Below, piece after piece: positions 23,729-55,118 of a DNA stretch of 55,503 nucleotides. The notes below the pieces were generated by a model that was not told the origin of the DNA, searched no databases, and worked only from the letters and a program-made list of their open reading frames with translations. The DNA is from an uncultured Coriobacteriaceae bacterium. Its GTDB lineage: Bacteria > Actinomycetota > Coriobacteriia > Coriobacteriales > Atopobiaceae. Every line of letters begins with the position of its first letter. Positions within the stretch are counted from its first letter, which is position 1. The DNA is taken from positions 147,227-202,729 of the forward strand of contig CADAUA010000005.1 of NCBI GenBank assembly GCA_902791035.1, in the 5' to 3' direction. The position numbers and the translations under genes are program-made.

Positions 23729-23805
23729 GAGTGGTCGCCTCGATACTGGCCGGTTGCTGTCCAGCCACATGATAGACGCCACGCTCCATGGGTTCAGGCG
23801 AGGAC

Positions 23806-24061
23806 GCACAAGTCGGGTTTGGGCCGCGGGTCCGCCGCACAGGTCAGGTTTGCGCCGCGGGTCCGCCGCACAAGTCGGGTTTGCGCCGCGGGTCCGCCGC
23901 ACAAGTCGGGTTTGGGTCGCGGGTCCGCCGCACAAGTCGGGTTTGCGCCGCGGGTCCGCCGCACAAGTCGGGTTTGCGCCGCGGGTCCGCCGCACAAGTC
24001 GGGTTTGCGCCGCTGGTCCGCCCGCCTCCCGCACAAGTCAGGTTTGCGCCGCCCGCCCGCC
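23806..24061. repeat. 31-bp tandem array, eight copies (array 1)
   Basis: Units start at 23806, 23837, 23868, 23899, 23930, 23961 and 23992, exactly 31 bp apart, with a last copy at 24031. Each begins GCACAAGTCGGGTTTG and continues with a GC-rich half around CGCGGGTCCGCC. Because 31 is not a multiple of three the array cannot encode a protein repeat. It fills the spacer between the regulator's 3' end and the M20 gene. The rest of 23729-24067 is featureless. Confidence 0.92.
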
Positions 24062-24067
24062 CGCAGT

Positions 24068-24810: not shown

Positions 24811-24855
24811 ATCCCAGCAAACACGTGGTGCTATCGGCGAGTGGGCGTCCGCCAC

Positions 24856-25072
24856 ACAAGTCGGGTTTGGGTCGCAGGTACGACGCACAAGTCAGGTTTG
24901 CGCCGCGGGCCCGCCACACAAGTCAGGTTTGCGCCGCGGGCCCGCCCCACAAGTCAGGTTTGGGTCGCAGGTACGACGCAAAGGTCGGTTATGGGCCGGG
25001 AGCTCGCCCCACAAGTCAGGTTTGCGCCGCGAGCCCGCCCCACAAGTCGGGTTTGCGCCGCCGGCCCGCCCG
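24856..25072. repeat. 31-bp tandem array, seven copies (array 2)
   Basis: Units beginning ACAAGTC(A/G)GGTTTG start at 24856, 24887, 24918, 24949, 24980, 25011 and 25042, period exactly 31. The first half is conserved; the second half exists in at least two versions (GGTCGCAGGTACGACG and CGCCGCGGGCCCGCC), with unit 5 diverged. Together with array 1 it brackets the regulator gene. Confidence 0.9.
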
Positions 25073-38222: not shown

Positions 38223-38288
38223 GTCACGCGGGGTCGGAGCTCGTGTCACGCGGGGTCGGAGCTCGTGTCACGCAGGGTCGGAGCTGCT
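38223..38288 (-). repeat. 22-bp tandem repeat, three copies
   Basis: Units start at 38223, 38245 and 38267; each is GTCACGCGGGGTCGGAGCTC plus two bases, period exactly 22. This is the reverse complement of the GACCCCGCGTGAC family at 38592 and 54941. Confidence 0.9.
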
Positions 38289-38352
38289 GTCACATTTCCG
38301 GCGGTTGTCCGCACCCTAGTGTGCTTCTGCTGAGCCTCGAATCGCTTGGACG

Positions 38353-38537
38353 ACCGATAGGGTGCAAGAGACGCTGCCTTGGGCTGCAATGGTGCACCCT
38401 ACTTGGGACCCCGACCGGATTTGGCTCACTCGAATGCCGATAGGGTGCAAGAAGGTGCTCTCGAGGCTTCCTTTCTGCACCCCAACGGGCTGCAGGAGAT
38501 GGAAAGGCGCTCGGGCGACCCGATGGGGTGCATGTGC
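38353..38537. repeat. Alternating TAGGGTGCA / TGCACCCTA array, locus A (period 83)
   Basis: The 9-mer core appears at 38358 (+), 38393 (-), 38441 (+), 38476 (-) and 38524 (+, TGGGGTGCA). Steps are 35, 48, 35, 48. With flanks the motif is about TGCACCCTAACGGG. The 26-bp and roughly 29-bp stretches between copies differ from each other. No gene is present. See the finding on this system. Confidence 0.85.
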
Positions 38538-38591
38538 CCCTTTCCCGTGGCAAGAGCTGACAAAAGGTCAGACTCCGGCGGCACTTTCACT

Positions 38592-38704
38592 CGACCCCGC
38601 GTGACAGCAACTCCGACCCCGCGTGACAGCAACTCCGACCCCGCGTGACAGCAACTCCGACCCCGCGTGACAGCAACTCCGACCCCGCGTCAACTCCGAC
38701 CCCA
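38592..38704 (+). repeat. 22-bp tandem repeat, four full copies plus a shortened one
   Basis: Units CGACCCCGCGTGACAGCAAC plus two bases start at 38592, 38614, 38636 and 38658; the fifth (38680) lacks five bases. It abuts the ribosome-binding region of the deaminase gene. TGACAAAAGGTCAGACTCC at 38568-38586 just before is another recurrent motif (also near 40461 inverted and 47521). Confidence 0.9.
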
Positions 38705-40504: not shown

Positions 40505-40749
40505 GAGGTGCCAGGCGGCTGCACCCTACTCGGGGCTCTGCCTCGCTGCATAGTGTCAAGTGGCCCGTTAGGGTGCAAGGTTGGCCCTATGGGAGGGTCA
40601 GCATGCACCCTACTTGGGGTTGACACCAGGTCTTTTGCGAGAATGCCCCGGTAGGGTGCAGAAAGCCGCTCGTGAGGCCGTTTCTCTGCACCCTACTGGG
40701 CGAATTCCTAGTGCAGGCCACCCCCAATCGTCCGTTGGGGTGCATCGGC
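40505..40749. repeat. Alternating TAGGGTGCA / TGCACCCTA array, locus B
   Basis: Core copies at 40520 (-), 40569 (+), 40604 (-), 40652 (+), 40687 (-) and 40736 (+, TGGGGTGCA). Steps are 49, 35, 48, 35, 49. The DNA between motifs is different in each interval and different from loci A and C. A TGTCC/TTTTGTCACC motif precedes it at 40461-40480. Most of the 40401-41012 gap is made of this array, the 22-bp repeats after it and the xdhA control region. Confidence 0.87.
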
Positions 40750-40760
40750 ACGCCGGCGGC

Positions 40761-40830
40761 GTGACACGGGACCCGACCCCGCGTGGCACCGGACCCGACC
40801 CCGCGTTGCGTAACCCCGCGTTGCGTATTC
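40761..40830 (+). repeat. 22-bp repeats next to locus B
   Basis: GTGACACGGGACCCGACCCC plus two bases (40761-40782), a variant GTGGCACCGGACCCGACCCC (40783-40804) and two shortened units (GTTGCGTAACCCCGC, GTTGCG). Same family as 38592 and 54941. Confidence 0.8.
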
Positions 40831-44864: not shown

Positions 44865-44881
44865 TTGTGGTTGGCTTGGAG

Positions 44882-45196
44882 GGTGGTCCCCCGGGGAGGA
44901 CTACCGATCCGACCAGAGGAGGGTGGTCCCCTGGGGAGGACTACCGATCCGACGGATCCACCGAGGAACCCCGGAATCCCCGGTTTTTGTCGTTACATAA
45001 GAAGTGGGTGGTCCCCCGGAGAGGACTACCTTGTCCGACCGGAAGGGGTGGTCCCCCGGGGAGGACTACCGATCCGACGGATCCACCGAGAAACCCCGGA
45101 ATCCCCGGTTCTAGTCGTCACATAAGAAGTGGGTGGTCCCCCAAGGAGGACTACCTTGTCCGACCGGAGGACGGTAGTCCCCCGGGGAGGACTACC
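44882..45196. repeat. GGTGGTCCCCCGGGGAGGACTACC palindrome array, period 125
   Basis: Six 24-bp near-palindromes start at 44882, 44932, 45007, 45047, 45132 and 45173; copies one, three and five are exactly 125 bp apart. Between them a stretch with CTACCGATCCGACGGATCC and CCCGGAATCCCCGGTT is duplicated at 44941 and 45066. It fills the gap between xdhC and guanine deaminase. No gene is seen. Confidence 0.88.
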
Positions 45197-45304
45197 GTCT
45201 CGTGATGGGGAAGACTGGTTTCGACCTTGGGGCTACCTTGGGGTCACGCGCTGGCTTGTCGTATTGTTTGAGAAGGAGGGCCGCCTGGGCAAGGAGGTTC
45301 CATC

Positions 45305-54791: not shown

Positions 54792-54936
54792 TGCACCCTA
54801 TCGGGCGGTTTTCGGTCCGGGCACCGCGGAGATGGCCAGTAGGGTGCACGAATCGCGGGTTTTGCCGTGTTTCTTGCACCCTAACGGGGCTTTGGCACCC
54901 CTGAGCTCTCCGAGCCAGCAGGTAGGGTGCGCCGTA
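54787..54936. repeat. Alternating TAGGGTGCA / TGCACCCTA array, locus C
   Basis: Core copies at 54792 (-), 54840 (+), 54875 (-) and 54923 (+, TAGGGTGCG): steps 48, 35, 48. Intervening DNA differs between intervals. It abuts a 22-bp tandem array at 54941, as at the other two loci. Confidence 0.85.
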
Positions 54937-54940
54937 AGGC

Positions 54941-55006
54941 ACGAGCTCCGACCCCGCGTGACACGAGCTCCGACCCCGCGTGACACGAGCTCCGACCCCG
55001 CGTGAC
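54941..55006 (+). repeat. 22-bp tandem repeat, three copies, next to locus C
   Basis: Units ACGAGCTCCGACCCCGCGTG plus AC start at 54941, 54963 and 54985, identical and exactly 22 bp apart; a diverged partial unit follows. Confidence 0.92.
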
Positions 55007-55118
55007 AACGGACCCGACCTCCGTGCCGCCCACCCGCCCATTCGCGCCGTCTGCGACAATCCAAAAAAGAACTGTGTTAGACCCTTGCATCCGCCGTCCC
55101 ACGTGCTTTAATAGCATT

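Follow-up and report, generated by a model that had tools for sequence, protein, structure and literature searches.

The window, a stretch of 55,503 nucleotides, carries three arrays of a short motif that alternates in orientation at helically phased spacing, and arrays of this kind lie beside nuclease-like genes in two phyla. At roughly even odds (a probability of about 0.5), we read the arrays as operator or target arrays, the cis part of nuclease-array genetic elements that would work in a RAYT-REP-like way with a different enzyme and with duplex, helix-phased sites. Taken together, the arrays and the nuclease-like genes suggest an undescribed kind of repeat-and-nuclease genetic element. 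They could be assigned to no known family, and their working logic is nearest to that of RAYT-REP.

Array geometry in the window and across its genome

The window lies within contig C5 of a 2.69-Mb draft genome (G000; 68% GC) and contains three arrays of TAGGGTGCA/TGCACCCTA in alternating orientation, none assigned a strand as a whole. Array 1 (38310..38532) has six motif sites (- 38310, + 38358, - 38393, + 38441, - 38476, + 38524) at steps of 48/35/48/35/48 bp. Array 2 (40520..40744) also has six (- 40520, + 40569, - 40604, + 40652, - 40687, + 40736), at steps of 49/35/48/35/49, and array 3 (54792..54931) has four (- 54792, + 54840, - 54875, + 54923) at steps of 48/35/48, leaving interiors of 26 and 39 bp between motifs. 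Allowing up to one mismatch, we counted 20 motif matches against 8.9 +/- 2.9 expected, with no shuffle as high as 20. Every alternating site listed in an earlier note on this DNA is present, and all three arrays fit the steps of 35 and 48-49 bp given there; the five sites it counted in array 1 stand, but a sixth, CGCACCCTA at 38310, had been overlooked and completes the array.

About 20 TGCACCC arrays are found in the genome (16 or more, and some 4 others whose outer motif is a variant), and a variant array set carries TGCACCCGCG. The genome-wide pair search that the earlier note had proposed as a check yielded 27 forward 35-bp pairs (up to 3 mismatches) against 8 in a reversed-pattern control. 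All 16 scored arrays are intergenic; two are called as overlapping genes, and these calls we read as 5′-extended reading frames. The reversed motif comes first and the forward motif last in 15 of the 16 (p about 1e-8 if ends were random). Since these arrays start with TGCACCC and finish with GGGTGCA, the 48-step module is the complete unit and the 35-step segment is the joiner of modules, so that the 35-bp inverted pair is not the element it had been taken for. One array on contig C5 of this genome (L073:1440-1613) has outer steps of 59 and 71 rather than 48 bp, roughly one and two extra helical turns.

The motif is conserved at an identity of about 0.89. The DNA between motifs, which had been called unrelated, is indeed mostly variable but not wholly unrelated: interior identity is 0.34-0.35 where composition would give 0.27-0.28, and the A/T content is dyad-symmetric and phased at 10.4 bp. 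An identical copy of array 2 occurs in the rumen MAG contig OMUP01000089.1 (L028), labelled Lachnospiraceae hRUG884; because of its 67% GC and its identity to the window around array 2, this contig is probably misbinned. The copy in a rumen contig, along with the 68% GC of the window's genome, would point to a Coriobacteriia species of the rumen as the window's source. Among 139 other genomes of the window's family, none has the motif pair at up to one mismatch, and a single chance-like 7-mer match was seen.

Helical phasing of the arrays

With the dyads as centre, the A/T content of both interiors oscillates with a period of 10-10.5 bp (z = 9.7 and 7.1 in the window's genome). The same phasing is seen in every module type and again, with z about 4, in 14 independent arrays from RUI397 and RUG11188. 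The dyad-to-dyad distance of 41.5 bp corresponds to four helical turns and the 83-bp period to eight. With the A/T oscillation in phase with the dyads and 83 bp equal to eight turns, the TGCACCC arrays look like duplex DNA that is protein-held or wrapped on one face. A dimer or filament-binding array, one of several options raised in the earlier note, is thus the best supported of them. Helical quantisation extends beyond this motif: in 21 arrays from Lachnospiraceae and 5 families from Coriobacteriia, periods sit at n x 10.55 bp with phase 0 and an R of 0.81, a value reached in 0 of 5000 draws from the null, while control arrays give R of about 0.2.

Structured small RNAs, another of those options, found no support. 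In mirror register, the interiors pair no better when matched inside their own module than when matched across modules (permutation p = 0.27 and 0.97), and they are therefore not hairpin stems. The 9-bp motif alone contains no internal hairpin. Fitting orientation by flipping arrays did no better than a symmetric null (p = 0.27), revealing no preferred strand, and the window has no Rfam match.

Array families beside nuclease-like genes in Coriobacteriia

When 400 kb of the window's genome was scanned de novo and without bias for alternating arrays of four sites, several further families emerged: GTTGCCYAC with a 64-bp period, TCAGTACG with 95 bp, CGCAGACGT and GCAGCCATT with 96 bp, and CACCTGCAAG with about 103 bp. 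TGCACCC arrays appeared in the same scan with periods of 83-85, 95 and 106 bp. Two TCAGTACG arrays bracket a single gene, which has 12 matches in the genome counting itself and 14 by profile. Most of these paralogues, here termed A1, are flanked by a repeat family of their own; left and right flanks have repeats in common at 10 of 12 A1 paralogues compared with 18 of 203 control genes (Fisher p = 1.6e-8). One Collinsella homologue lacks a clear array. Repeats of this sort reach into the window as well. Palindromic GGTGGTCC..GGACTACC units form an unstranded 125-bp tandem array at 44878..45197, and these repeats also flank the paralogue L128 (contig C6). Unstranded 31-bp tandem repeats at 23805..24064, with a second block of the same family at 24849..25071, likewise flank paralogue L126 (contig C2). 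In the window, a gene is enclosed between the two 31-bp repeat blocks.

The Pfam matches of the A1 proteins, to DUF559 / MTES_1575, are weak. Of the 12 paralogues, L129 alone reaches the gathering score, with 42.3 bits where 20.6 are required; the matches of L126-L128 fall short of it, and the others have no match. An AlphaFold model of A1 (pLDDT 81.5) has as its best structural neighbour the I-Bth0305I homing endonuclease domain, at a middling Z of 8.1 over 92 residues, and matches Vsr at Z 5.9. The N-terminus of the model resembles the AbiEi antitoxin (6y8q, Z 5.5) and Rv2827c (1zel, Z 4.1), and one member has a PADLOC AbiEi match (E 0.004). These comparisons point to a predicted C-terminal nuclease domain of the Vsr/EDxHD type (PD-(D/E)XK fold) joined to an AbiEi-like N-terminus.

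A second nuclease-like family in Lachnospiraceae

Scanning GTDB genome contigs for the 35/36-bp motif pair returned mostly single hairpins of unrelated phyla, together with the Lachnospiraceae/Eubacterium MAG RUI397. This MAG holds about 14 arrays with the same 8-mer at steps of 36/27, giving a period of 63 bp, or six turns; their interiors are similar inside one array and unrelated across arrays. Between two of its TGCACCC arrays lies a gene for a 280-residue protein of a different family, A2. No profile-profile match was found between A1 and A2, and the idea of a single sequence family was rejected.

Homologues of A2 occur in 42 of 120 Lachnospiraceae genomes. At 30 homologue loci, chosen on protein similarity alone, a tandem array lies no more than 600 bp from the gene in 22 cases, and 24 arrays were found against about 1.8 expected from 400 kb of control DNA. 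The arrays stand upstream only at 16 genes, on both sides at 3 and downstream only at 2. The adjacent array units that were inspected carry species-specific motifs as inverted pairs, but only 9 of 19 Lachnospiraceae array consensuses, or about half, have inverted arms above shuffles (p <= 0.05). Motif similarity does not significantly track protein similarity (Mantel r = 0.10, p = 0.13), leaving motif-protein co-evolution unsupported. A model of A2 (pLDDT 89.8) combines a coiled coil with an I-Bth0305I-like domain (Z 8.7 over 89 residues, a middling score). This domain matches PADLOC PDC-S68 at E 7e-30, and its residues of catalytic type (SxxE, PD, EH) are invariant; PDC-S68 is matched by 25 of 25 aligned members. 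A2 proteins likely carry a C-terminal Vsr/EDxHD-type nuclease domain (PD-(D/E)XK fold, as modelled) behind a coiled-coil N-terminus. The nuclease-like proteins do not look plasmid- or phage-borne, because plasmid and viral collections are nearly empty of them (the viral scan used A2). Among viral contigs, a relative of the nuclease domain from Lachnospiraceae turned up once, at 41% identity, on IMGVR_UViG_2799112682_000001 (L220).

In the window's genome, where proteins neighbouring the arrays were screened with the nuclease profiles, no nuclease gene was found adjacent to TGCACCC arrays and no cognate protein for the motif was found; the 1.25 Mb examined for an A2-like protein contained none. 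Because its own genome yielded no protein tied to TGCACCC, the window is linked to nucleases through RUI397 and through the other array families.

How the elements might work

Within each array family, an asymmetric motif of about 9 bp particular to that family alternates in orientation, and successive dyads, of both kinds of inverted pair, would be separated by whole helical turns. Such geometry could be read by a sequence-specific protein or its oligomer that occupies the inverted motif pairs on a single helical face and bends or wraps the A/T-phased stretches in between. The reader in most families is likely encoded beside one copy of the array, as a protein of the Vsr/EDxHD type, and the reader of the window's TGCACCC motif may be of this type. 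The closest fold to the nuclease domains of both A1 and A2, I-Bth0305I, dimerises on a target almost 60 bp long (PMC3943268), a length similar to that of the 57-bp module of the TGCACCC arrays; it differs in being a phage intron enzyme for which no arrays are described. An array adjacent to the gene would probably serve as both operator and target site, and the dispersed arrays would most likely be copies spread or maintained by the gene-linked protein, in the way that RAYTs act on REPs; tandem units would afterwards be gained and lost locally.

A more specific version of this proposal we hold only tentatively and consider somewhat doubtful: that gut Actinomycetota and Bacillota harbour a class of selfish elements in which a Vsr/EDxHD-fold nuclease reads dispersed, helically phased inverted-motif arrays and cuts or copies there, spreading both gene and arrays, with specificity shifting rapidly between species. 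If the proposal is true, large orphan nuclease-like families of gut bacteria would gain a recognisable DNA target, and inverted motifs at n x 10.5 bp beside a gene would be a simple rule revealing the specificity of each protein. The elements would then represent a repeat-mobilising or operator logic distinct from RAYT-REP, CRISPR and classical homing.

Alternative explanations

The arrays could instead be host-serving architectural or regulatory sites, bound by a nucleoid protein, gyrase or a global regulator and causally independent of the nuclease genes. Their dispersed, intergenic placement would fit such a role, as would A/T phasing suited to wrapping, and E. coli BIME-2 is bound by gyrase (PMC2817692); the failure to find a cognate nuclease for TGCACCC in the window's genome also counts in its favour. 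We nevertheless think it somewhat unlikely. The pair, at up to one mismatch, is missing from the 139 other family genomes, unlike a conserved host function, and array families are strongly tied to nuclease genes.

A second possibility is a REP origin: RAYT (Y1/HUH) transposases, acting through single-stranded DNA hairpins, would have produced the arrays and moved them as non-autonomous REP arrays. The genome has five Y1_Tnp genes, and RAYT-type repeats lie beside about half of the TGCACCC arrays, often 15-17 bp from the first motif. In the window, tandem repeats of 22 bp (GTCACGCGGGGTCGGAGCTCGT), whose cognate enzyme is a RAYT-type Y1 transposase (L052), lie left of array 1 on the plus strand (38223..38293), with inverted minus-strand copies to its right (38592..38690) and further minus-strand copies right of array 3 (54940..55007). 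These 22-bp repeats are a separate repeat family from the TGCACCC arrays, and the two are associated only. BIMEs likewise consist of REPs at regular spacing in alternating orientation (PMC2817692), and the TGCACCC arrays are similarly extragenic, alternating and regularly spaced. The motif alone is, however, not a hairpin and its unit is no imperfect palindrome forming one; the interiors show no covariation; the 5′-GTAG tag is not conserved; and single-stranded hairpins would not predict helical-turn quantisation or A/T phasing. The repeats beside the five RAYT genes are of other kinds, with TGCACCC absent from the flanks of all five, and a RAYT is accordingly rejected as owner of the arrays. 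We regard the REP explanation as unlikely. Our preferred reading of nuclease-array elements nonetheless borrows much from RAYT-REP: a gene of nuclease type with repeats of its own on either flank, numerous copies dispersed between genes, and species-specific units of alternating orientation and regular spacing. Dispersal near housekeeping genes with one gene-linked copy is a further resemblance (PMC2817692). The two part in the enzyme, which has a predicted Vsr/EDxHD fold rather than being an HUH Y1 protein, and in the units, which are not hairpins and have spacing set by duplex helical turns with interiors free to vary.

As a separate observation, the 22-bp repeat GGGGTCGGAGCTCGTGTCACGC occurs 261 times genome-wide at up to 3 mismatches and flanks the Y1 transposase gene (L052). 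Several arrays have it inverted on their two sides; in the window it is found at 38223-38690, 40759-40806 and 54940-55007.

Improbable, in our estimate, is that the arrays are duplicated AbiEi-type autoregulatory operators and the protein a regulator or antitoxin whose nuclease domain is dead. Besides the AbiEi and Rv2827c likeness of the A1 N-terminus, this idea draws on the arrays upstream of A2 genes and on AbiEi itself, which binds inverted repeats cooperatively and bends DNA (PMC7319586). The promoter of rv2827c, an AbiEi-family gene, has four alternating inverted repeats whose gaps of 13 and 4 bp give a 63-bp period (PMC7319586). Our literature searches found no description of a system with the geometry of these arrays, in agreement with the earlier note, but this promoter comes near it. 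AbiEi-family operators (the abiE and rv2827c promoters) share with our arrays alternating inverted repeats upstream of their own gene. They differ in having at most four 23-bp repeats at one promoter, no dispersed arrays and a partner toxin gene; an unsystematic look beside the genes examined noticed no toxin partner. About 20 dispersed arrays distant from the gene would be left unexplained, and the invariant catalytic-type residues of A2 argue against a dead domain.

A series of RNA hairpins, or guide arrays like those of CRISPR or TIGR, is very improbable. Conserved spacing with variable contents invites this comparison, and TIGR arrays, like the arrays here, alternate short repeats (8-12 nt) beside their gene (PMC12045711). 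TIGR-Tas, however, uses two different repeats with 9-nt spacers that yield guide RNAs and a Nop-domain protein, whereas the motifs here are inverted copies of one another. The TGCACCC arrays have neither unique, guide-like spacers with one transcribed strand nor the compensatory base pairs or Rfam match of a structured RNA; covariation and strand preference are absent. The CRISPR-like acquisition once entertained for them fails on the interiors, which have a common symmetric consensus and in RUI397 recur nearly unchanged inside one array. Hardly credible at all is a relic or neutral minisatellite with no present function: the interiors have decayed and copies within RUI397 arrays resemble slippage products, but neutral decay should erode motif and spacing like the interiors, and the motif is about 89% identical with steps held within about 1 bp.
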